Shown here piece by piece: positions 1,966 through 19,305 of a stretch of DNA of 20,311 nucleotides. Source of the stretch: a virus. Within the stretch, counting starts at the first letter, position 1. The number at the start of each line of letters is the position of its first letter. The notes beneath the pieces were generated by a model. It searched no databases and had not been told where the DNA came from. It saw only the letters and a program-made list of their open reading frames with translations. A program made the position numbers and the translations under genes. The DNA lies in IMG/VR virus record IMGVR_UViG_3300036850_000249, positions 1 through 20,311 of that record; one strand, 5' to 3'.

Positions 1966-2330
1966 TGGCCACGGTGTTCTGCGACACGGGCAAGGCGGTC
2001 ACCACCAACCGCCTGAAGGGTTCCGGCACCGAGCCGCTTTACGTCGCCATCGGCACCGGCGCCGGCACGGCTGCTGCAGGCGACACGACGCTTTTCACCG
2101 AGGTCGAGACCCGCACCGCCGGCACCAGCTCGAGGACGACGACGACGGTCACGAACGACACCTACCAGGTGGTTGGCACCGTCACGGCGACAACGTCTCG
2201 GGCGGTCACGAACGCGGGGCTCTTCGACGCCTCATCGAGCGGCAACCTGTTCGTCAAGACCGACTTCTCCACGGTCAACCTGGCGAGCGGCGACTCGATC
2301 CAGATGACGATCAGCCTGAAGTACGCCTAG
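1965..2330 (+). CDS. Small beta-rich virion structural protein
   Basis: 121 residues. ATG 1965 overlaps the previous stop and is preceded by AGAGGAGGCGC; an upstream GTG at 1938 in frame is less likely because it sits inside the previous gene without a ribosome site. The protein is Thr/Ser/Gly/Ala-rich and beta-like, with KAVTTNRLKGSGTEPLYVAI, a GTGAGTAAAGDTTLF loop, ITNAGLFD-like SRAVTNAGLFD, and an ending of ASGDSIQMTISLKY. This pattern (threonine-rich strand, NAGLFD, GNLFVK, SGDSIQ) recurs in small phage structural proteins often labelled tail-fibre-like or decoration-like. Its place between capsid and connector favours a head decoration or neck-associated role, but this is inference. Confidence 0.65.
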   Translation: MATVFCDTGKAVTTNRLKGSGTEPLYVAIGTGAGTAAAGDTTLFTEVETRTAGTSSRTTTTVTNDTYQVVGTVTATTSRAVTNAGLFDASSSGNLFVKTDFSTVNLASGDSIQMTISLKYA

Positions 2331-2333
2331 GCC

Positions 2334-3545
2334 GTGGCCGTCCCGTTCGTCCAGAGCGCGGCCAACCCGAGCACCGGCCTCAACGTCACCGCCACCCTCG
2401 GCGCGGCGCCGACTCAGAACAACCTGCTGGTGGCCCACGTCGCCCAGCAGGCCACCAACACCTTCACGCCATCGGCCGGCTGGGCCGCCCTCACCGAGGT
2501 CACCTCGACCGATGAGGGTCTGCTCCTCTGGAAGATCGCCGGTGCGGCCGAGCAGGCAGCGCAGACGCCCTGCGTGACCTCCAGCGCGACCCGCAACTGG
2601 GAGTGCATCGTCGCGGAGTACAGCTCCGTGGCGGCGAGCCCGCTCCTCGCCGAGAACGGTCAGGCCGACAACGACGCCACCAAGACCTCGCCGTCGGTCA
2701 CCCCGACCGCGGGGCTCCGCGCGCTTTGCATCGGCGCCGCCTTCTCCACCACCGCCAGCACCGGCTTCTCGGCCCAGAAGCTCAACGGCTCGACCACCGG
2801 CGTCACCGAGCGCCAGGACCAGGGCTCCGGCTCCGGCTCGAACCAAGTCCGGGGCTGTCTCTGGGACGCTGAGATCACCTCCACCTCCGGCAGCTACACC
2901 GTGGAGGCGACCGCATCGGTGTCGGAGGCGGGTGGCGTCAGCATCGCGATCTTCAAGCTGACCTCGGGGACGACGTTCAACCAGTCCGCGAGCGCCACCT
3001 CGACCGGCACGCCGACGGCTGTCCGGCAGACCGGGCTGGTGCGTTCGGCGACCAGCACCGGGACGTCCACGGCGGCCAGGCAGGTGGCCCTCGTGCGTTC
3101 GACGACCAGCACCGCCACCGCGACCGCCCGTCGATCGGCCGAGCTCGTCCGCGCGGCCTCCTCGACCGCCACCGCCAGCGCACTGCGTGCCGTGGGCAAG
3201 CTCGTCACCGCCTCGAGCACAGGCACCGCCGCCGCGCTGAGAAGCGTCGCGCTCGTGCGGAGCGCCACGGCGACGGGCGCAGCCGCAACAGCACGGCTGG
3301 TGGCCAAGAGCGCTGCGGCGACCGCCACCGGCACGGTGACCATGGCCAAGACCGTCAGCAAGAGCGTCACCGCGCTCGCCACCGGCACGGCGAGCGCCAT
3401 CGCCAGCTTCGCCGCGGAGGCTCTCCTTTTCCTGCGCGACGCCCTGGTCGCCACGGTTGCCCTCGTGCTCGCTCCCCGCGCCACGGTGCGGCTCAGCGAG
3501 GCACTGGTCGCGACGGTCACCCTCTCGGATGTCGAGCTTGCCTGA
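2334..3545 (+). CDS. Virion appendage-like protein with eight exact 18-residue repeats
   Basis: 403 residues from GTG 2334, three bases after the previous stop; no strong ribosome site, so probably coupled. Residues 1-210 form a beta-rich domain (NNLLVAHVAQQATNTFTPSA, then WECIVAEYSSV and SIAIFKLTSG) that looks like an Ig- or galactose-binding-type fold used in surface proteins. Residues about 219-358 are a low-complexity array in which STGT or a variant recurs at 223, 241, 259, 277, 295, 313, 331 and 349, an exact 18-residue period, with a conserved Arg and a hydrophobic LVR at each unit end. The last 40 residues contain EALVATV twice and a hydrophobic LLFLRDALVATV segment. It could be a head fibre, decoration protein or receptor-binding element. 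Its site in the head module rather than after the tape measure gene is unusual. Confidence 0.7.
   Translation: MAVPFVQSAANPSTGLNVTATLGAAPTQNNLLVAHVAQQATNTFTPSAGWAALTEVTSTDEGLLLWKIAGAAEQAAQTPCVTSSATRNWECIVAEYSSVAASPLLAENGQADNDATKTSPSVTPTAGLRALCIGAAFSTTASTGFSAQKLNGSTTGVTERQDQGSGSGSNQVRGCLWDAEITSTSGSYTVEATASVSEAGGVSIAIFKLTSGTTFNQSASATSTGTPTAVRQTGLVRSATSTGTSTAARQVALVRSTTSTATATARRSAELVRAASSTATASALRAVGKLVTASSTGTAAALRSVALVRSATATGAAATARLVAKSAAATATGTVTMAKTVSKSVTALATGTASAIASFAAEALLFLRDALVATVALVLAPRATVRLSEALVATVTLSDVELA
2991..3410 (+). repeat. In-frame 54-bp degenerate tandem repeat
   Basis: This segment of the 403-residue gene encodes eight units of exactly 18 codons. Units diverge strongly at DNA level while the Thr/Ser/Ala-Gly-Thr core, Ala-Arg middle and Leu-Val-Arg end persist, so the repeat is old and kept by selection on protein structure rather than being a recent slippage array. 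Confidence 0.75.
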
Positions 3546-3839
3546 ATGGCGCGCGGCGCCTACGAGGTCGGCGCGCTCGTGAGGGCCACGGCCACCTTCC
3601 AGGTCGGATCCACGGCGACCGACCCAAGCACGATCACCGCGATCGTGCGGCCGCCCAGCGGCTCGAGCGCGACCTACGTCTACGGCACCGACGCCGAGCT
3701 CGTGAAGGACTCGACCGGCGTCTACCACGTGGACATCGACGTCAACGCGGCCGGCCGCTGGGTTTACCGCTTCGCCGGCAGCGGCGCAGCCCAGGCCGCC
3801 GGCGAGGAGATCTTCATCGTCGAGGACAGCGAGGTCTGA
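3546..3839 (+). CDS. Small Ig-like head-region protein
   Basis: 97 residues; ATG 3546 directly abuts the previous TGA, and its own TGA shares a base with the next ATG (TGATG). The sequence alternates beta strands and turns: VGALVRATATFQVGSTATDP, ITAIVRPPSGSSATYVYG, STGVYHVDIDVNAAGRWVYR, then FIVEDSEV at the end. The pattern of a polar strand, a Pro-rich turn and a G-x-Y-x-V-D-I strand resembles single Ig-like or carbohydrate-binding-like domains found in small head or tail proteins. I do not recognise a named family. The gene is tightly packed between the repeat protein and the head-tail connector, so a virion part is likely. Confidence 0.6.
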   Translation: MARGAYEVGALVRATATFQVGSTATDPSTITAIVRPPSGSSATYVYGTDAELVKDSTGVYHVDIDVNAAGRWVYRFAGSGAAQAAGEEIFIVEDSEV

Positions 3840-4474
3840 TGGCCTGGGCTCCGGTCTACGCAACGGTCTCCGACCTGAAGGCCGCGCTGGGGATCACGGA
3901 CACCGAATCCGACGCCGAGCTCATGTACGCGCTCACGGCCTCGAGCCGGCTCATGGACCAGCACACCTCGCGCCAGTTCGGCCTCGTCGAGGTCGCCGCG
4001 GCCCGCTACTACCGTCCGCAGTGGGATCGCCGGCGCGGCCGCTGGTACGTCGCGATCGACGACCTGATGACGACCGACGATCTCGTCGTCAAGACCGACG
4101 ATGGCTCCGGCGCCTTCGCGACCACGCTGGCGCTGGACAGCGACTACCGGCTCTATCCCTGGAACGCCGCCGCCGACGAGCGGCCCTGGACCTCGCTCGC
4201 CGTCGACGCCGGGGTCACCTTCACCCAGGGCGGCACTGGCTCCTTCGCCGACCGCGCGCTCGAGGTGACCGGGCTCTGGGGCTGGACGACCACGCCGACG
4301 ACAGTGATCCAGGCCTGCCTGCTCCAGGCCGGGCGGCTCTTCAAGCGCAAGGACGCGCCGTTCGGTGTGGCGGGAAGCCCCGAGATCGGCTCCGAGATCC
4401 GCTTGCTCGCCCAGATCGATCCCGACGTGGCGGTCCTCCTCGACCCGTTCCGCCGGAACTGGGGCGTGGCGTGA
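3839..4474 (+). CDS. Head-tail connector protein, HK97 gp6-like
   Basis: 211 residues from ATG 3839. The N-terminus, YATVSDLKAALGITDTESDA followed by ELMYALTASSRLMDQHTSRQF, is typical of the gp6-like DNA-packaging/connector family: a helical region that begins with a DLKA..L.I....D motif and packs into a ring under the portal. The later part (TTPTTVIQACLLQAGRLFKR, KDAPFG and an acidic/hydrophobic IDPDVAVLLDPFRR end) also matches the long-helix, C-terminal pattern of this family. These proteins extend the portal channel and join head to tail after packaging. The length is larger than the shortest members (about 100 residues) because of a middle insertion rich in Arg, Trp and Asp. Its stop overlaps the next start as GTGA. 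Confidence 0.8.
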   Translation: MAWAPVYATVSDLKAALGITDTESDAELMYALTASSRLMDQHTSRQFGLVEVAAARYYRPQWDRRRGRWYVAIDDLMTTDDLVVKTDDGSGAFATTLALDSDYRLYPWNAAADERPWTSLAVDAGVTFTQGGTGSFADRALEVTGLWGWTTTPTTVIQACLLQAGRLFKRKDAPFGVAGSPEIGSEIRLLAQIDPDVAVLLDPFRRNWGVA

Positions 4475-4875
4475 GCATGAGCGTCGGTGCGGTCATGGAT
4501 GGGATCGGCGCGCGCCTCGCCACGATCAGCGGCCTACGTATCTACGACTATCCGGCCGACGCGGTCGCGGTGCCGGCGGCCGTGATCCGCTTTCCGGAGC
4601 TGACCTACGACGCCACGATGGCGCGCGGGGCCGACCGGGCGACGTTCCCGGTGACCGTCCTGGTGAGCAAGGTCTCCGACCGCGCCGCTCGGGACGCGCT
4701 CTCGCTCTACCTGAACGGGACGGGCGCTAGGAGCATCAAAACGGTGGTCGAGGCCGACCGGACGCTCGGCGGCGCGGCTCAGTCGACGCGCGTCACCGAC
4801 GTCGTCGTCGAGGCATTCACCGTCGGCGGCGTCGAGCTCCTCGGCGCGACCTTCAATATCGACGTGGTCGCGTAG
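4471..4875 (+). CDS. Probable tail terminator / tail completion protein
   Basis: 134 residues from GTG 4471, which overlaps the connector stop (GTGA); an in-frame ATG at 4477 is the alternative start. The protein has the make-up of tail terminator proteins: an N-terminal helix (VGAVMDGIGARLATISGLRI), YDYPADAVAVPAAVIRFPEL with a turn, a central strand PVTVLVSKVSDRAARDALSL, a Tyr-Leu-Asn-Gly-Thr-Gly segment and a C-terminal hydrophobic beta strand. Such proteins cap the tail tube and meet the connector. Position between connector and tail tube genes is exactly that of terminators in siphoviruses. The family assignment is by pattern and position, not by a diagnostic motif. Confidence 0.65.
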   Translation: MSMSVGAVMDGIGARLATISGLRIYDYPADAVAVPAAVIRFPELTYDATMARGADRATFPVTVLVSKVSDRAARDALSLYLNGTGARSIKTVVEADRTLGGAAQSTRVTDVVVEAFTVGGVELLGATFNIDVVA

Positions 4876-4894
4876 GCCACAGGAGGGCTGAGCA

Positions 4895-5305
4895 GTGGCG
4901 TTTGTGCATGGGAAGGACAGCGTCTTCACGGTCAACTCGAAGGATCTCTCCGCCTACCTCACCCAGGCCGATCTCTCGAACTCGGTCGACATGGCGGAAA
5001 CCTCGACGATGGGAAGCGAGGCCAAGAGCTACATCAGCGGCCTTTCGGACAACACGATCTCGATCGCTGGGTTCTACGACTCCACCGGCACCAGCGGCCC
5101 GGATGCGGTCCTGAACGCACTGGTCGGCAGCGACAGCTCGACGACCTTCGAGTACGGCCCCGAGGGTGGCACCAGCGGCAAGGTCAAGTACTCCGGCAGC
5201 TGCTTCCTGACGAGTTACAACGTGACCGCGCCGATCGGCGACGTCGTGGGGTTCGCCGCCGACTTCCAGACCACCGGTGCGGTCACGAAGGGCACCTACT
5301 CTTGA
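4895..5305 (+). CDS. Major tail (tube) protein
   Basis: 136 residues from GTG 4895, with AGGAGGG (4881-4887) at good distance. The chain reads as a small tail tube protein: FTVNSKDLSAYLTQADLSNS, then VDMAETSTMGSEAKSYISGL, DNTISIAGFYDSTGT, and a late CFLTSYNVTAPIGDVVGF strand. The DLS-A-Y-L ... V-D-AETSTMG-S-AK-YI-GL layout is common to actinophage tail tube proteins that stack as hexamers. It is followed at once by the chaperone genes and precedes the tape measure gene, the classic order. A separate strong ribosome site suits a protein needed in many copies. The stop overlaps the TTG start of the next gene (TTGA). Confidence 0.8.
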   Translation: MAFVHGKDSVFTVNSKDLSAYLTQADLSNSVDMAETSTMGSEAKSYISGLSDNTISIAGFYDSTGTSGPDAVLNALVGSDSSTTFEYGPEGGTSGKVKYSGSCFLTSYNVTAPIGDVVGFAADFQTTGAVTKGTYS

Positions 5306-5616
5306 GCCTGCCGACGATTGCGCCGCAGACGGCGGTCGTCGAGCTGGAGGGCGGCCACAGCGTGAGCGTGCGCGGGCTCAGCCGCGGGGAGGCGCTCGAG
5401 ATGGCGGCGGTCGGCAATGCCCTCGCCGACGGCGGGACCGACGGCCTGGCCGAGGGCGAGATCCAGCTGCTCGCCTATGGCACCGACACGCCGCTCGACG
5501 AGGTCCGCCAGTGGTATGCGACCGCACCGTCGGTGGCGGTGAAACCGATCCTCGACAAGATCCTCGAGATTTCCGGGCTGGGGGAGAACGGCGCCCGCCC
5601 TACGAGCGAGGGCTGA
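5302..5616 (+). CDS. Tail assembly chaperone, upstream frame (gpG-like)
   Basis: 104 residues from TTG 5302 (TTGA overlap with the tail tube gene). It is a small acidic, helical protein with VELEGGHSVSVRGLSRGEAL at the front, then a regular helical middle ending LDKILEISGLGENG. Its place between tail tube and tape measure genes identifies it as the G part of the G/GT chaperone pair that holds the tape measure protein soluble while the tail forms. The rare TTG start would lower initiation from this gene, leaving coupling to the tube gene as the main route. A GGGGGA run near its end may allow a -1 shift into the next frame (separate entry). Confidence 0.7.
   Translation: MSLPTIAPQTAVVELEGGHSVSVRGLSRGEALEMAAVGNALADGGTDGLAEGEIQLLAYGTDTPLDEVRQWYATAPSVAVKPILDKILEISGLGENGARPTSEG
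5580..5586 (+). promoter_or_regulatory. Candidate -1 ribosomal frameshift site
   Basis: In the upstream chaperone frame the codons are CTG GGG GAG, making GGGGGA (5580-5585). A P-site tRNA on GGG can re-pair perfectly with GGG after a -1 slip. The -1 frame is open from here into the downstream chaperone ORF and reads GERRPPYERGLMLGAIDAFD, without a stop. It is not a canonical X-XXY-YYZ heptamer with full A-site re-pairing, so the site is tentative. Confidence 0.4.
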
Positions 5617-5771
5617 TGCTCGGCGCGATCGACGCGTTCGACTTCGAGCTCGCGCTCGACCTCGGCAAGACCCTTGGCGAGATCCGCGACCTCCCCAATC
5701 AGGAGATCGTGGCCTGGCGCGCCTACTACAGGGTGCGCAACGAGTTGCAAAAGCTGCACGCGGGCCGCTGA
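5616..5771 (+). CDS. Tail assembly chaperone, downstream frame (T-like)
   Basis: 51 residues if started at ATG 5616, which shares one base with the previous stop (TGATG); it may instead be made only as a fusion by a -1 frameshift from the upstream gene. The sequence AIDAFDFELALDLGKTLGEI followed by LPNQEIVAWRAYYRVRNEL is characteristic: the downstream chaperone frame of siphoviruses carries an E-x-x-W-x-A-Y-Y-x-x-x segment. It lies in the -1 frame relative to the 5302 gene, the same relation as in lambda G/T. Function would be binding of tape measure protein and recruitment of tail tube subunits. Confidence 0.65.
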   Translation: MLGAIDAFDFELALDLGKTLGEIRDLPNQEIVAWRAYYRVRNELQKLHAGR

Positions 5772-6190
5772 TGGCAGTCGCATCGACCGCCATTCGGATC
5801 GAGGGGCTCCGGGAATTCCAGGCGGCCCTGCGGAAGATGGACAAGGGTCTGCCAAGGCAGATCCGCATCGTCCTGAACGAGACGGCCGATCTCGTCGCCA
5901 GCCCTGCCAAGCTGCGAGTTCCCCGGCGATCCGGTCGGGCTGCCGCCAGCATCAGGGTCGCCTCCTCGCAGCGGGAGGCGAAGGTCAAGGGCGGCGGCGG
6001 CCGGGTGCCCTACTACGGCTGGCTGGAGTTCGGAGGCGCCGTCGGTCGCCGTCACAGCGTGCGGCGACCGTTCGTCAAGGAGGGGCGCTACCTCTATCCG
6101 GCCTACGAGTCGCGTCGGTCGAGGATCGAGCCCACCATGCTCAAGGGGCTCGAGGATCTCGCGCGCCGCTCCGGCGTGGCGATGAGCTGA
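5771..6190 (+). CDS. HK97 gp10-like minor virion protein
   Basis: 139 residues from ATG 5771 (TGATG overlap). It matches the gp10-like family: an N-terminal IRIEGLREFQAALRKMDKGL helix, IRIVLNETADLVASPAKLRVP, then the diagnostic PRRSGRAAASIRVASS strand pair, PYYGWLEFGG and a terminal region with YLYPAYESRR before a helix. In phages this family is a minor head-tail component with a role at the neck. It is normally encoded just before the tail terminator gene; here it comes after the chaperone pair and before the tape measure gene, a rearranged order worth noting. The domain itself looks intact and of usual length. Confidence 0.8.
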   Translation: MAVASTAIRIEGLREFQAALRKMDKGLPRQIRIVLNETADLVASPAKLRVPRRSGRAAASIRVASSQREAKVKGGGGRVPYYGWLEFGGAVGRRHSVRRPFVKEGRYLYPAYESRRSRIEPTMLKGLEDLARRSGVAMS

Positions 6191-6441
6191 TGGCGGTCAG
6201 GAAGCAGCCTGTGCAGCCCAAGAGCGAGCCTTCGGCTGCTGCAGCGCCGGCCCCAACCGCGCCTGTCGTCGACTGGGACGCGCTGCCGGAGGATTGGCGA
6301 GCGCGGCATCCCGGCCGGACCTACGGGGACGAGACGCCTTCCCAGCACGCCAACCGTCTGCGGGCTCTTGCCGAGGCGGTACCGGCCAAGCGCGAGCGCT
6401 TCCTCGAGCGCGCTGAGCAGCTTCTCGAACGAGACGGTTGA
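6190..6441 (+). CDS. Small protein between gp10-like and tape measure genes
   Basis: 83 residues from ATG 6190, sharing a base with the previous stop and with the tape measure ATG at 6441. Residues 1-27 are Pro/Ala/Lys-rich and probably unstructured; residues 28-50 contain VDWDALPEDWRARHPGRTYG, and the rest is a charged helix (NRLRALAEAVPAKRERFLER). I do not recognise a family. Because it sits within the chaperone/tape measure group and is fully coupled to both neighbours, a helper role in tail assembly is plausible but unproven. The unbroken coupling on both sides is the main coding evidence. Confidence 0.6.
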   Translation: MAVRKQPVQPKSEPSAAAAPAPTAPVVDWDALPEDWRARHPGRTYGDETPSQHANRLRALAEAVPAKRERFLERAEQLLERDG

Positions 6442-8075
6442 TGGCGAAGAACTACGTCCAGCTCGTCTTCGCCGGCGACACCAAATCGCTGATGCGCGCC
6501 CTCAGCGACGTCGTCAAGGAGACCGGCAAGACCGAGAGCAAGCTCAAGAATCTCGGCAAGGCCTCCGCCATCGGCCTCGCCGGCATGGCGACGGCCGCCG
6601 TCGGCCTCGGCGTGAAGATGATCAGCTTGGCCTCCGACGCCGAGGAGGTCCGCTCCAAGTTCGAGACCGTCTTCGGCAAACAGGTCCCGAGGCTCAACAA
6701 GAACATCGAGGATTTCGCGAAGGCGACGGGCGCGAGCACATTCGCGATGCGCGAGCAGATCGCCAACATGGGCGCGCTGCTCTCGCCGATCCTCGGCAAC
6801 GCGAAGGCCGCCGGCGAGATGAGCTTCAAGTTCACGGCGCTGGCGAACGACCTCGCGTCCTTCAATAACGTTCCCGTCGCGGACGCGCTCGCCGCGATCC
6901 GCTCAGGTCTGGTCGGCGAGGCGGAGCCGCTCCGCGCCTTCGGCGTCCTCATCAACGACGCCGCGGTCAAGGCCGAGGCCTACCGCTCCGGCATCGCCAA
7001 GGTCGGCACGGCGCTGACCGAGCAGCAGAAGGTCCAGGCTCGCGCCAACCTCATCACGCAGCAGACCGCGCTCGCCCAGGGTGACGCGACGCGCACGGCG
7101 GGTTCCTTCGCGAACCAGATGAAGACCCTGCGGAACAAGATCTCGGACACCGCCACCGAGATCGGGATCAAGCTCCTGCCCAAGGCCCTGGAACTGCTCC
7201 GGTGGATCAACAAGGACGCCATCCCGGCCATAGAGGCCTTCGCCGAGAAGGTCGGGCCGATTCTCGGCGGCGCCTTCGAGTGGGCTTCCAAGCAGATCGC
7301 GATCTTCAAAAGCGACGTCGAGGCCATCGTCGGGGTGGTCAAGACCGCCAAGCGCGTCGTGGAGACGGTGGGGACCGCCTTTAGCCCCAATCGGTACGAC
7401 ACGATCCCCTCGGGCGACCCGCAAGTTCTTGGCGGCCGTCCAGGCAGCCAGGGCCGCGGCGCAGTGGTCCCGGGCAAACCGGCCGTACCCGGCAAGCCTT
7501 CGCCGGGTTCCGCCGGCGGTGGTAGTTTCAACGAGAAGTCGTGGACCAGCGCCTTCAAGAACGCGATGGCGCCGAAGAGGCGGAGGGCGACCGCCCGGTC
7601 AACCCCAGAGCAGCTTGCGGCTTGGCAGGGGGAGGAGACCCCGGGCAGCGTCGCCTACGCGATGGCGCAGCTCACGCAGGGCGTGAGCGATGACCTGTCG
7701 GCACTCCAGATGCTCGTTACCGAGGCCGAGAAGGCCTACTCGCGCGCCCAGGGTCCCGCCGCCATCGTCGAGGCCGCCGGCGCGCTCGCGTCGGCCCGCA
7801 GCAACCTGGCCGGCCTCGGGCCCCTGCAGCGTTTGGCGAGCGGCGAGCTCGTCGCCACCGGCACGGGAACCGCCGCGGAGGCGAGCGACGCGCTCCTGCG
7901 GGACATCCTGCGCGCGAAGGGCCAACTCCCCGCCGTCAGCGTAAGCGCCGGCACCGGCGTCACCGGCGCGTCGGTCATGAACATCACGATCAACACCGCC
8001 GCCTCGGGCGACGACGTGATTCGGGCGATCCAGACCTACGAACGCCAAAACGGCCAGCAGTTCGCGCGGGCCTGA
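6441..8075 (+). CDS. Tape measure protein
   Basis: 544 residues from ATG 6441 (TGATG overlap; a TTG at 6438 is possible but needless). The N-terminus (YVQLVFAGDTKSLMRALSDV) and a hydrophobic stretch AIGLAGMATAAVGLGVKMIS are typical of tape measure proteins, followed by VFGKQVPRLNKNIEDFAKAT, the conserved MGALLSPILGN, FNNVPVADALAAIRSGLVGE, AEPLRAFGVLIND and LTEQQKVQARANLI blocks. A Gly/Pro-rich linker lies at about residues 330-360, and the end MNITINTAASGDDVIRAIQT is a standard C-terminus. It sets tail length and is ejected with DNA. At roughly 0.15 nm per residue the tail would be near 80 nm, short for a siphovirus. No lytic domain is visible. Confidence 0.9.
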   Translation: MAKNYVQLVFAGDTKSLMRALSDVVKETGKTESKLKNLGKASAIGLAGMATAAVGLGVKMISLASDAEEVRSKFETVFGKQVPRLNKNIEDFAKATGASTFAMREQIANMGALLSPILGNAKAAGEMSFKFTALANDLASFNNVPVADALAAIRSGLVGEAEPLRAFGVLINDAAVKAEAYRSGIAKVGTALTEQQKVQARANLITQQTALAQGDATRTAGSFANQMKTLRNKISDTATEIGIKLLPKALELLRWINKDAIPAIEAFAEKVGPILGGAFEWASKQIAIFKSDVEAIVGVVKTAKRVVETVGTAFSPNRYDTIPSGDPQVLGGRPGSQGRGAVVPGKPAVPGKPSPGSAGGGSFNEKSWTSAFKNAMAPKRRRATARSTPEQLAAWQGEETPGSVAYAMAQLTQGVSDDLSALQMLVTEAEKAYSRAQGPAAIVEAAGALASARSNLAGLGPLQRLASGELVATGTGTAAEASDALLRDILRAKGQLPAVSVSAGTGVTGASVMNITINTAASGDDVIRAIQTYERQNGQQFARA

Positions 8076-10090: not shown

Positions 10091-10187
10091 GCGCACCTGC
10101 CCGACCGTCTGCCTGGTCGCGCTCTGGGCCTCGTTCGCTGAGGGGGTCGCGTTGCTGGCGATCGCCGTGGTCTGGATCGTCCGCTGA
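10080..10187 (+). CDS. 35-residue single-span membrane protein
   Basis: 35 residues from GTG 10080, overlapping the previous gene by 11 bases and ending in TGA that shares a base with the next ATG. After a basic head (MARKRTCPTVC) there is one hydrophobic segment, LVALWASFAEGVALLAIAVV, and a short WIVR tail. The longer open frame beginning at 9828 is not credible upstream of this point because it is Ser/Arg-rich shadow sequence. Tiny single-span proteins like this are common partners in phage lysis cassettes, either as holin, antiholin or spanin-like factors; no specific assignment is possible. Confidence 0.45.
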   Translation: MARKRTCPTVCLVALWASFAEGVALLAIAVVWIVR

Positions 10188-10897
10188 TGTTCTGGCGTCT
10201 GCGCGGCGTCGTGCCGACCTGGGTCTACGCGGTATCGCTCGTGCCGCTGATCGTGAGCACCGTGATCTCGTTGTCGCTGGCCGTGAGCGCCCGCACCCAG
10301 GTGCGCCAGGAGGCCGAGCAGCGGGCGGCGCTGGCGCTGGAGGTCGCCCGGTCGAGCCGGCAGGCGACGATGGTGCTGCGCGCCCAGAGCCGGCGGGCCG
10401 ACAACAACACCTGCCGGCTGATCAACGGGCTGGGCCGGGCCATCGCCCAGGCCACCGGCGCCCGCTTCGAGGCGGTGGGTTGCAGGACGTTTCGCCTCAC
10501 GGGGCGGGTGGTGGGCGCCAGCGGCCCCGCCGGCCCCTCCGGCCAGCCGGGCCAGCCGGGCACCCCGGGGCGGCCCGGGCGACCGGGGCGGCGGGGCCCG
10601 CCCGGTCCTCGAGGTCCGATGGGAGCGCCCGGTCCTGCAGGGCCGGCGGGGCCGGCCGGGCAGGAGTCGCTCATCTCCGCCGAGGAACTCGGCCGGCTGC
10701 GCGCCGGCGTGGTCGACGCGGCCGGCCGGCTCGACGTGCTCGAGCGGGTGGCGCTCCGGGCTGGCGATCTCACGGAGCTGCGCCAGCGCATCGAGACGCT
10801 GGAGGAGAACATTCGCAATCTGAACGCCCAGGTCGCGGCGCTCGAAGCAATGGCGGTCGCCGCCGCGCCCACCGCCAGCGCACCGGTGGCGCCGTGA
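10187..10897 (+). CDS. Membrane-anchored collagen-like / coiled-coil protein
   Basis: 236 residues from ATG 10187 (TGATG overlap). Order: a transmembrane segment near residues 11-33 (TWVYAVSLVPLIVSTVISLS then LAV); a helical Arg/Ala/Gln-rich stalk to about 75; a segment with two cysteines (C76, C99); fifteen uninterrupted Gly-X-Y triplets from G113 to about residue 157, rich in Pro and Arg; then a long amphipathic helix to about 225 with LDVLERVALRAGDL and LRQRIETLEENIRNLNAQVA, a likely trimeric coiled coil that could register the collagen triple helix. An Ala/Pro tail ends it. Phage collagen-like proteins are usually fibre parts; here the membrane anchor and place before the endolysin suggest instead an envelope-spanning rod, possibly doing a spanin-like job or decorating the lysogen. 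That role is inference. Confidence 0.75.
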   Translation: MFWRLRGVVPTWVYAVSLVPLIVSTVISLSLAVSARTQVRQEAEQRAALALEVARSSRQATMVLRAQSRRADNNTCRLINGLGRAIAQATGARFEAVGCRTFRLTGRVVGASGPAGPSGQPGQPGTPGRPGRPGRRGPPGPRGPMGAPGPAGPAGPAGQESLISAEELGRLRAGVVDAAGRLDVLERVALRAGDLTELRQRIETLEENIRNLNAQVAALEAMAVAAAPTASAPVAP

Positions 10898-13263: not shown

Positions 13264-13758
13264 CTAGGCGATGAGGCAGATCGCGGTCGTGTGGTGCTCG
13301 TTCGGTACCGCAGTGCGCGACCGGACACCGTTCGATGCGATCCAGACGTCGTTCGGGATCGGGGAGCCGGCCCCGTCCTCCGCGCTACCGCCGATGACCT
13401 TGCCGCCAGCCGGGCAAATCGCCGTGTTGACCGTGACGCCGCTCATCCTGGTCGTCACGTAGACGACGCGGCCTAGGTCGCCAGGGGCGCCCTGCGGCCC
13501 CTGAGGGCCCTGGGGACCCTGCGCCCCCTGCGGCCCCTGCGGCCCGGCCGGCCCCTGCGGGCCCGTGATCGCGTTGGGCACCACACCGCGGGCGAGCTTC
13601 GCCTTCGTGATGGCGCCGTTGGCCAGCTGGCGCGCCGTGATCGTTCCCGGGGCGATCTGGCTGCCCCGGATGAGCTTCGGAGCGGCGATGCCCACGCCGG
13701 AGCCGGCGACGAAGAGGGCGGTGGCGGCGACGATCATGGAGGGGCTCGGACGCTTCAT
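13264..13758 (-). CDS. Secreted collagen-like protein
   Basis: 164 residues from the ATG at 13758; an in-frame ATG at 13767 would add three residues, but the AAGGA motif fits 13758 better. Order: basic head MKRPSPSM, a hydrophobic signal segment IVAATALFVAGSGVGIAA, a region with repeated GTITARQLANGAITKAKLAR, nine Gly-X-Y triplets rich in GPQ (about residues 66-92), and a compact C-terminal domain with two cysteines (AICPAGG near the middle and TAICLIA at the very end) that could form a disulphide. Proteins of this build are abundant in Thermoleophilia genomes and are presumably displayed outside the cell. In a phage it is most simply a cargo (moron) gene altering the surface of the lysogen, possibly taken from a host. 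Confidence 0.8.
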   Translation of the reverse strand: MKRPSPSMIVAATALFVAGSGVGIAAPKLIRGSQIAPGTITARQLANGAITKAKLARGVVPNAITGPQGPAGPQGPQGAQGPQGPQGPQGAPGDLGRVVYVTTRMSGVTVNTAICPAGGKVIGGSAEDGAGSPIPNDVWIASNGVRSRTAVPNEHHTTAICLIA

Positions 13759-17152: not shown

Positions 17153-17404
17153 CCGGCCGACCAGCTCCGCGAACGCCGCGAGGCCCTCGGGCTTTCCCAG
17201 GAGGCCGTCGCCCGCCGGACGGGTCTTTCGGTCCGCACCGTGTTCCGCGCCGAGCAGGGCTTCCCGCTCCGCCAGGAGACGCTCCGCCAGATCGCCGACG
17301 CCTTGGGCCTCCGGGTGCATCTGGTGCTGCACGTCGCTGATGGTGAAGACGATTGCGTCGGCGCGCGTCCCCCGGAAGGGGGATTGTCGGAGGGCGGGGC
17401 GTGA
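17150..17404 (+). CDS. XRE-family HTH regulator, plus strand (copy 2)
   Basis: 84 residues from ATG 17150, with no ribosome site but a promoter placed for a leaderless mRNA. HTH: ADQLRERREALGLSQEAVAR, RTGLSVRTVFRAEQGFPLRQ, then LRQIADALGLRVHLVLHVAD. It is a close paralogue of the 14944 protein. The last 15 codons include a CCCCC-GGAA-GGGGGATTG stretch similar to the cargo-gene element (17369-17386), in the orientation of the next gene. The TGA overlaps the GTG of the HNH-helicase gene (GTGA), so this regulator heads that operon and can report on or limit its expression. Confidence 0.8.
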   Translation: MPADQLRERREALGLSQEAVARRTGLSVRTVFRAEQGFPLRQETLRQIADALGLRVHLVLHVADGEDDCVGARPPEGGLSEGGA

Positions 17405-19305
17405 GCGGTCGCCGATTCAGCGCCAGCGAGAAGGCGGCGCTCTGGGTTGCCGCCGACGGGCGCTGCGAGTCGTGCGGCTCCCCGCTTGAGCCCGGCTGGC
17501 ACGCCGATCACCGGCTGCCCTGGTCCCGTGGCGGGGCAACCGACGTCCTGAATGGCCAGGCGCTCTGCCCGGCCTGCAACCTCCAGAAGGGAAACCGCAT
17601 GGCGCCTGCTCCATCTCCGTGGCCGATCAGCCTCCCGCTCCGCGGCTGGCAGTCGAGCGCGCTCGCGCAGGTCCTGTCCCGGTTCAGCGCCGGCGAGCGC
17701 GACTTCCTCACGGTCGCGGCGCCCGCGGCCGGCAAGACGCGGTTCGCCGCCAGGGTGGCGCACGAGCTCCTGCGCAGCGGCGCGATCGAGCGCGTGGTCG
17801 TGGTCGTCCCGACGGAGCCGCTCAAGACGCAGTGGGCGCGGGCAGTGACGCCCGCCGGCATCCACCTCAACCCCAGGCTGGCGAACGCCCACGGCCAGGA
17901 GGTTGCCGCGACCTACCACGGCGCCGTCGTGACCTACGCGCAGGTCGCGAGCGAGGCTGCCGTCCACCGCATCGGCTGCCGCCGCCCGACGCTCGCCGTG
18001 TTCGACGAGATCCACCACGCCGGCGACGAGCGCTCATGGGGCGGTGCCGCGGCCCACGCCTTCGACGGCGCGGCCTACCGGCTCCAGCTCTCCGGCACGC
18101 CGTTCCGCACGGACGGCACCTCCATCCCCTTCGTCAGCGGCGCCGACGGCCGGCTCCGGATCGACTTCGCCTACACCTACGGCGAGGCGATCCGCGACGG
18201 CGTCTGCCGCTCGGTCGTCTTCCCCTCGTGGGAGGGCGAGCTCAACTGGTCGAGCGGTCCCCAGGACTTCGACCGCGTCGCGTTCGGCGACGACCTGCCG
18301 GCGTACGAGCGCGGGCGCCGCCTGCTGGCGGCGATGGAGGTCGGCGGCGGCTGGCTCGAGCCGTACCTGATCGAGGCGAACGCGCACCTCGACCTCCTGC
18401 GCCGGAACGGCGATCCGGGCGCCGGCGGCCTCGTGCTCGCGCGCGACCAGCGCCACGCGGCCGAGATCCAGCGGTTGCTCGGGCAGATCACGGGCGAGCA
18501 GCCGGTGCTCGCCACGAGCGACGTCGAGGGCGCGGCCGATCTGATCTCCGCATTCGCGGGCTCGCGCGAGCGCTGGATCGTGGCAGTGAGGATGGTCAGC
18601 GAGGGCGTCGACATCCCGCGCCTCCGGCTGGCGGTGTTCGCCACCAACACGACCACGGACCTCTTCTTCCGCCAAGCGGTCGGGCGGATCACCCGCTGGA
18701 TGGCCGACGGCCCGGAGGAGCAGTCCGCCTACTTCTACATTCCACGGCTGCCGGAGCTCATCGATCTGGCGAGCAGCATCAAGGGGATGCAGGCCGAGAC
18801 CGCCCAGGCGCTCGAGGATCTCGACCGCGCGGCGCGGGAGCCGCGGGAGCCCGGGCAGGGCCGCCCGTTCGTCAACCGCGGCGGGACCGCGGTCGCCGAC
18901 GACTGGCTCCTCGCCGACGGCGTCCGCGACGCCGCCGCAGTCGCCATCGACGAGATCAGCCGTGCGCAGGCCATCGCCGCCGCCACGGGGCTTCCCGTGC
19001 CGCCCGAACAGATCGCGCTGATCGCGCGCGAGCTGGAGCGCCGCGCCGGCATGGCCGCAGAGGAGGCGGACGAGGCCGCGACGCCCGATCCCCGCCCCGC
19101 CTACCTCATCATCGAGGGGCTGCGGCAGGAGCAGGACCGGCTCGTCCGGCGCTACGCCGGCGCCACGGGCAGCGACTTCAAGGACATCTACGACCTGATC
19201 GCTCGGCGCGTCGGCGCCTACCGCGACGAGGCGACCGAGGAGCATCTGCGGCAGGGCAACGAGTTGATCCGCGAGCTCCTCGCGGAGCGGGGTCGTGGTC
19301 GCTGA
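17401..19305 (+). CDS. HNH nuclease - SF2 helicase fusion
   Basis: 634 residues from GTG 17401 (GTGA overlap). Residues 20-66 are an HNH domain: CESC (C22, C25), HADHRLPWSRGG (H34, D36, H37), then LCPACN (C56, C59, N60) and KGN. Residues about 78-440 form an SF2 helicase of the ResIII/DEAH group: LRGWQSSAL as Q-like motif, Walker A APAAGKT (107-113), motif II DEIHH (202-206), motif III SGTPFRTDG (231-239), a second RecA fold with MVSEGVDIPRL (398-408), and motif VI QAVGRITRW (425-433). All key residues are present. The last 200 residues are helical. It should track or unwind duplex DNA and cut it. It could serve phage recombination and replication initiation, act like a UvsW-type helicase, or attack competing DNA; the sequence cannot choose. 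Confidence 0.85.
   Translation: MSGRRFSASEKAALWVAADGRCESCGSPLEPGWHADHRLPWSRGGATDVLNGQALCPACNLQKGNRMAPAPSPWPISLPLRGWQSSALAQVLSRFSAGERDFLTVAAPAAGKTRFAARVAHELLRSGAIERVVVVVPTEPLKTQWARAVTPAGIHLNPRLANAHGQEVAATYHGAVVTYAQVASEAAVHRIGCRRPTLAVFDEIHHAGDERSWGGAAAHAFDGAAYRLQLSGTPFRTDGTSIPFVSGADGRLRIDFAYTYGEAIRDGVCRSVVFPSWEGELNWSSGPQDFDRVAFGDDLPAYERGRRLLAAMEVGGGWLEPYLIEANAHLDLLRRNGDPGAGGLVLARDQRHAAEIQRLLGQITGEQPVLATSDVEGAADLISAFAGSRERWIVAVRMVSEGVDIPRLRLAVFATNTTTDLFFRQAVGRITRWMADGPEEQSAYFYIPRLPELIDLASSIKGMQAETAQALEDLDRAAREPREPGQGRPFVNRGGTAVADDWLLADGVRDAAAVAIDEISRAQAIAAATGLPVPPEQIALIARELERRAGMAAEEADEAATPDPRPAYLIIEGLRQEQDRLVRRYAGATGSDFKDIYDLIARRVGAYRDEATEEHLRQGNELIRELLAERGRGR

Follow-up and report, generated by a model that had tools for sequence, protein, structure and literature searches.

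The fibritin whiskers of phage T4 are a neck fibre, built as a trimeric coiled coil. In the Anabaena myophage A-1(L), gp80-gp82 are described as long neck-ring appendages that carry a carbohydrate-binding module distally (PMC10966104). In Alishewanella phage LSH1, gp34-36 constitute an "extra structural module", whose products have been reported as virion proteins on the basis of mass spectrometry (PMC13243795). According to that paper, the module consists of a payload, a protein matching chain 8JOU_g of the podophage GP4, and an Ig-fold protein; this trio always co-occurs in the related IMG/VR genomes considered there, and in the payload an N-terminal beta domain is followed by a C-terminal part that was predicted poorly (PMC13243795). 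The same paper names phage Slicko01 as a relative of LSH1. A literature search, with subscription journals mostly outside its coverage, returned no description of 18-residue repeats in phage neck fibres among the listed titles and beginnings of abstracts. Here, we analysed a 20,311-nucleotide stretch of viral DNA (IMG/VR record IMGVR_UViG_3300036850_000249, positions 1-20,311; hereafter, the window), which encodes a protein with such repeats in its head module.

Genes surrounding the repeat protein

The genes of the window discussed here lie on the (+) strand, in the order capsid, endonuclease VII, gp80-like protein, repeat protein, Ig-like protein, adaptor and tail terminator; a major tail protein comes next. 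The major capsid protein, of the HK97 fold (3-944; PF05065, E 6e-16; phrog_2263, major head protein, E 4e-47), has the 5′ end of its gene cut by the window. An endonuclease VII-like gene (1001-1630; PF02945, E 2e-25; phrog_2633, E 4e-33) separates the capsid gene from the fibre cassette.

The cassette begins with the gp80-like protein, a possible fibre anchor (1938-2330; phrog_5417, E 5e-10), for which the ATG at 1965 suits the relatives better as a start than position 1938. This protein matched PF23140, "Podophage GP4 fiber I gp80", with 23.6 bits and E 7e-5, below the family cut-off of 27.0. The repeat protein follows (2334-3545; 403 aa), with a GTG start that agrees with the MA[IV]..VQ starts of several relatives. 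Immediately downstream are a 97-aa Ig-like protein (3546-3839), whose seven-sequence profile matches filamin Ig repeats with E 0.003, the head-tail adaptor (3839-4474; phrog_442, E 6e-17) and the tail terminator (4477-4875; phrog_17840, E 4e-31). Between the stop of the gp80-like gene at 2330 and the start of the adaptor gene at 3839, adjacent genes overlap or leave gaps of 0-3 bases. The preliminary description had located the repeat protein between capsid and connector genes, which is borne out by the Pfam and PHROGs matches of its neighbours, and the repeat gene indeed keeps the company of neck genes, just ahead of the Ig-like and adaptor genes.

Elsewhere in the window, 10187-10897 on the (+) strand encodes what by eye is a collagen-like Gly-X-Y stretch with a coiled-coil-like end behind it. 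Additionally, a G+C-rich tandem repeat of 9/27 bases is present at 13489-13564, and a single ORF at 17353-19305 combines an HNH endonuclease match (about aa 16-90) with a phage DNA helicase match (aa 91-448).

The 18-residue repeat array

The repeat protein is composed of an N-terminal beta-sandwich domain that lacks repeats (2334-2966; about aa 1-211; motifs NNLLVA, GW and KIAGA.E), eight in-phase 18-residue units (2982-3413; aa 217-360) and a C-terminal segment of 43 residues (3414-3542; aa 361-403). The exact 18-residue step over eight units, noted before from the letters alone, is real, and the array is free of gaps. At lag 18 (aa 213-360), the mean BLOSUM62 score was 2.06, with 49% identity and a z of 11.9, and in none of 2000 residue shuffles did the highest score at any lag from 2 to 59 come up to it; the scores at lags of 36 and 54 residues were likewise above every shuffle. 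The top lag score of the front 212 residues was just -0.23. Within the units, Thr occupies position 8 in all eight, Gly position 9 in six, Thr position 10 in seven, and Arg or Lys position 15 in seven, while Ala, Ser and Thr together make up 64% of the array.

At the DNA level, the array shows 54% identity at lag 54, compared with 32% on average across lags 3-169. Third codon positions at a lag of 18 codons are hardly above background (identity 0.44 versus 0.41); thus, the units are old and constrained at the protein level, with no recent DNA expansion. DNA repeat tools detected the array in part, as several families of 24-54 bases, some spaced by 54 bases, and the tandem-repeat tool called no 54-base tandem array in the window. 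The final 43 residues do not make up a ninth unit; they form a separate segment with a 10/20-residue rhythm. Short-period C-terminal ends that are similar by eye occur in L022, L042, L043 and L008.

No sequence match of the repeat protein was found in Pfam, NCBIfam or the PDB, and its best PHROGs matches (E 0.08 and 0.68) are uninformative. A close orthologue of the whole protein was found neither in a scan of viral contigs nor by tblastn in phages and plasmids, and none was detectable in 15 capsid-related viral records, many of which are fragments. Scanning with the units of the window itself yielded 600 pattern matches, of which not one was confirmed. Such absence of repeat matches is weak evidence, because BLAST masks low-complexity sequence.

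Fold of the repeat units

The preliminary description had raised a left-handed beta-helix built from hexapeptides, a proposal that the periodicity of the array does not support, as lags 6 and 12 are not among the window's lags with |z| above 2.5. In the comparison of arrays, the window scored 0.46 and 0.40 at these lags versus 2.36 at lag 18, and ten related 18-residue arrays scored at most 0.16 versus 1.4-4.1, values that carry no significance test. Four of the 11 arrays (L026, L059, L061 and L062) have their hydrophobic-moment maximum at 100 degrees; in the remaining seven it falls at 115-160 degrees, with the window at 120. The conserved Gly and Pro of L026, L057 and L059 argue against one long helix.

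In the AlphaFold2 model, the repeats were not confidently folded, with block pLDDT values of 33-68, mostly below 50, and a helical lean at low confidence. For comparable segments of LSH1, low-confidence beta-helix models have been reported (PMC13243795). Strands, a trimeric fibre or helices are all possible for the repeats of the window.

The N-terminal domain

Based on AlphaFold2 with 22 sequences, residues 1-210 form a beta-sandwich, with block pLDDT values of 85-96 for aa 1-100 and 54-85 for aa 101-210. A beta fold is thus predicted with good confidence, and together with the structure searches it upholds the jelly-roll-like front domain suggested earlier. These searches gave 73 matches at E<=1e-3 among the predicted viral proteins of BFVD, and several of the 50 listed are annotated as minor tail proteins. 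Against solved structures, Foldseek returned nothing at E<=1e-3, and the best VIA-align match (Z 6.0) was within the range of common arrangements. The front-domain profile found nothing better than E 2.3 in the PDB. A single-sequence folding attempt was discarded (mean pLDDT 33.5).

The domain belongs with the beta-sandwich of Gordonia phage Jamzy gp32, with which it shares motifs in a 13-sequence alignment; against Pfam, the 13 members gave single-member matches only (best E 0.035). Direct comparison with the Jamzy gp32-type domain by phmmer gave E 1e-8, a value that does not come from a database search, whereas in the tblastn database search Jamzy gp32 and Sphingomonas phage MMDA13 gp24 were reached at E 0.6 and 4. 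The alignment seeded with these two tblastn relatives identified 26 viral-contig loci, and a second front-domain alignment added four, giving 30. A scan of genome contigs yielded one further relative, the prophage-like locus L053 in a Patescibacteria MAG, in which the array scan found no repeats of the 18-22-residue type.

The front domain may be a glycan-binding head, as judged from the sulfatase, SGNH hydrolase and LamG-like heads found nearby in relatives. A sulfatase gene lies immediately ahead of the repeat protein in L021 (2676-4004), an SGNH hydrolase is encoded a few genes upstream of the repeat gene in Rhizobium phage RHph_TM16, and LamG-like heads were recognised by eye in L055, L006 and L059.

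Repeat arrays in other loci

To compare arrays, 1370 ORFs of at least 150 aa were scanned in 63 sequences, the window included; L065 contains L063, copies (L001, L054 and L056) were dropped, and shadow frames of the same DNA also score. An array with a period of 18-22 residues occurs in the same ORF in 11 of the 30 front-domain loci (L021, L022, L024, L026, L030, L032, L034, L035, L036, L042 and L043), which amount to fewer than 11 independent cases because the front domains of L035, L036 and L043 are near-identical. The filter was also passed by further ORFs, such as collagen-like repeats in L019 and neighbouring ORFs in L033, L038, L039, L040 and L050; since these pass as well, the filter alone defines no family.

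The period is 18 in the window, L021, L022, L026, L055 and L057-L063, 19 in L030, 20 in L006, L008, L024, L034 and L043, 21 in L035/L036, and 22 in L032 and L042. L055 and L057-L060 are not independent evidence for the period, because they were found with L026-type repeats; L006/L008, from the capsid search, and L061-L063, from the gp80-like search, are independent in this respect. By eye, about every third unit of L057 (4206-5729) is two residues longer than 18. In L062 (MW202615), an unannotated open frame of 1000 residues (4710-7709) contains near-identical 18-residue units, and mostly minus-strand genes are annotated over it in the record.

Permutation analyses showed that the TPxG arrays of L026, L055, L057, L059 and L060 are mutually related, with 0 of 1000 permutations reaching the observed score in each of the ten pairs. 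Ten comparisons were made with the window unit. Against the five TPxG arrays, its score was reached by 62-473 and, in a repetition, 63-487 of 1000 column permutations; against L063 (RHph_TM16 EVB27_046), the column order was reached by 3 and 8 of 1000 in two runs, and against L061 (the 430-aa protein of ct2os315) by 4 and 12. Among the arrays compared, L063 and L061 alone show an appreciable resemblance to the window unit. These values replace those of a first test with a strict position matrix (193/5000), in which the units had been gathered with an anchor that introduced a bias. A repeat architecture shared across loci is well supported, and a common descent of all units is not.

The TPxG-unit profile matched nothing in the PDB better than E 0.93, and tblastn with the L008 repeat protein found nothing in phages at E<=1e-3. 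The repeat proteins of L021, L022, L026 and L035 match small PHROGs of unknown function (E 1e-6 to 9e-3). A Pfam assignment of L035 to WGR (23.7 bits, cut-off 22) was set aside; it looks like a repeat artefact, because no single stretch passes.

Recurrence of the cassette

The gp80-like profile matched eight of 57 loci, and seven of these (L021, L022, L026 and L057-L060) also encode 18-residue repeat proteins; the eighth, L028, carries the beta domain. In L022, L057, L058 and L060, no more than 250 bases separate the gp80-like gene from the repeat protein downstream of it; in L021, L026 and L059, at least one gene lies between the two. With the gp80-like protein alone as the query, three annotated phage records were found, and in all three an ORF with 18-residue repeats follows on the same strand: as the next gene in MW202796 and MN988459, and as the unannotated frame about 1.4 kb downstream in MW202615. 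An extension of the gp80-like family to L006, L008, L042 and Slicko01, proteins that are similar by eye, was dropped, as the profile comparison did not support it.

The Ig-like profile matched seven of the 57 loci (L006, L008, L042 and L057-L060). The homologues in L057 and L058 form the N-terminal portion of a head-tail adaptor, with an independent adaptor match for L057 (5733-6560; phrog_442, E 2e-19), and in each of L006, L008, L057 and L058 a single ORF is hit by both profiles, Ig-like and adaptor. L006 and L008, which share 49% and 43% capsid protein identity with the window, have 20-residue repeat ORFs immediately ahead of the Ig-adaptor gene. In L002/L003, the end of the capsid gene and the start of the adaptor frame are about 300 bases apart, which leaves no room for a repeat gene, and in the Mycobacterium phages Cracklewink and Dallas, with related capsids, other genes occupy the slot. 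The slot rather than the sequence seems to be conserved.

In L021, L035, L057, L058 and L059, the repeat protein and a major capsid gene are no more than about 3 kb apart. In MW202796, the repeat gene is flanked by the capsid gene on one side and by several annotated tail-fibre genes in a row on the other. The 42 kb around the gp80-like/repeat pair of MN988459 contain no annotated capsid or tail gene, and no head gene was identified among the neighbours scanned, a part of the total, in L022, L042, L055 and L060. In L030, a single ORF (2012-4525) contains two stretches that match head closure Hc1, along with 19-residue repeats and, at its C-terminal end, a beta domain; this fusion is the clearest indication that stalks of this kind can be attached at the neck.

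Discussion

We consider it about an even chance that the repeat protein is the distal part of a head-tail neck appendage, with a repeat stalk, an exchangeable beta head and a gp80-like/Ig-like anchor. In such an appendage, the gp80-like protein and the Ig-like protein of the adaptor ring would form the anchor, the eight 18-residue units would form a rod-like stalk, and the N-terminal beta-sandwich would be an exchangeable binding head, probably for glycans. The head would help the phage to hold cells or surfaces before the tail tip engages. The two parts that a stalk with a distal domain calls for, a repeat array and a separate beta domain, are present, with a low pLDDT for the stalk; presence in the virion, the oligomeric state and which end is distal are what we infer for this protein.

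The preliminary description favoured a head fibre over a tail fibre. Its fibre part holds, because comparable arrangements are found again next to capsid, connector and anchor-like genes of other phages, and a neck or collar fibre is the more precise wording, with a position that stays inferred because location in the head module does not fix it. Part of the evidence would also suit a tail-tip or side-fibre protein whose gene merely lies within the head module and whose beta domain binds a receptor at the tail end. By eye, the beta domain terminates the tail-fibre-like proteins of L033, L039, L050 and L052; Jamzy gp32, which carries it, adjoins a minor tail protein, and MMDA13 gp24 lies among tail genes. 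The domain also resembles predicted minor tail proteins, and the cassette of MW202796 is followed by the tail-fibre genes mentioned above. Nevertheless, recurrence by capsid, portal, terminase or connector genes, the fusion of the Ig-like partner to the adaptor and the head-closure fusion of L030 all speak against a tail location, which we regard as unlikely.

A decoration fibre on the capsid shell instead of the neck ring, in which the repeats would act as a flexible spacer, would be in keeping with the capsid gene upstream, from which only the endonuclease and gp80-like genes separate the repeat gene, and capsid head fibres of such a kind are known in other phages. Nevertheless, the partner genes match connector and collar proteins, not shell decoration proteins, and we judge this placement quite improbable. 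Slightly less credit still is due to the view that the array is an Ala/Ser/Thr-rich, low-complexity linker, perhaps glycosylated, that has no defined structure and acts as a mere spacer. Its composition and its mostly low pLDDT would fit such a linker, but the strict 18-residue register, with the invariant Thr8 and the conserved Gly9 and Arg/Lys15, would not; nor would the near-background third codon positions, which indicate that selection keeps the protein pattern, or the recurrence of the 18-residue unit length in arrays of quite different composition.

Beyond the window, the neck-fibre reading could extend to a widespread modular system of tailed phages, with one stalk architecture whose unit length is kept at 18 (about 18-22) residues as the unit sequence drifts almost without restraint, swappable binding or enzyme heads and a gp80-like plus Ig-like anchor, a generalisation that we offer as tentative and somewhat doubtful. 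If it is true, many unannotated repeat proteins of head modules could be read as neck appendages with swappable heads, and stalk length could be tuned through the number of units. It would also provide a testable reason for failed structure predictions and a gene-order rule for finding such proteins.

Among the known systems, T4 fibritin resembles the proposed fibre by description, both being neck fibres, and differs in its coiled-coil stalk. The collar fibre of the Ralstonia podophage GP4 (8JOU; PF23140) is a weak match to the gp80-like product of the window. The likeness to A-1(L) is again one of description, in a long neck-ring appendage with a distal binding module; its stalk is made of about 14 trimers of one bead protein (PMC10966104), whereas the stalk encoded in the window would be a tandem repeat inside one chain. 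The LSH1 module differs in its location after the lysis genes, whereas the cassette of the window lies between the capsid and the adaptor, and in its lyase-like payload (PMC13243795). Slicko01 encodes an 1843-aa hypothetical protein with 20-residue tandem repeats (L067: 8570-14101, (-) strand), and neither the gp80-like nor the Ig-like profile matched the neighbours that were compared. This protein may be the homologue of LSH1 gp34, in which case its repeats would explain why the C-terminal segment of LSH1-type payloads defeats structure prediction; a modular neck-fibre system, if real, would likewise account for the "unpredictable" C-terminal domains of LSH1-type modules. The LSH1 module and the window share the combination of a beta-domain payload, a GP4-matching protein and an Ig-fold protein (PMC13243795), and the sole PDB match of the window's gp80-like profile at E<=1 (8jou_a, E 0.048) is to the same GP4 entry, 8JOU, that the LSH1 module matches.
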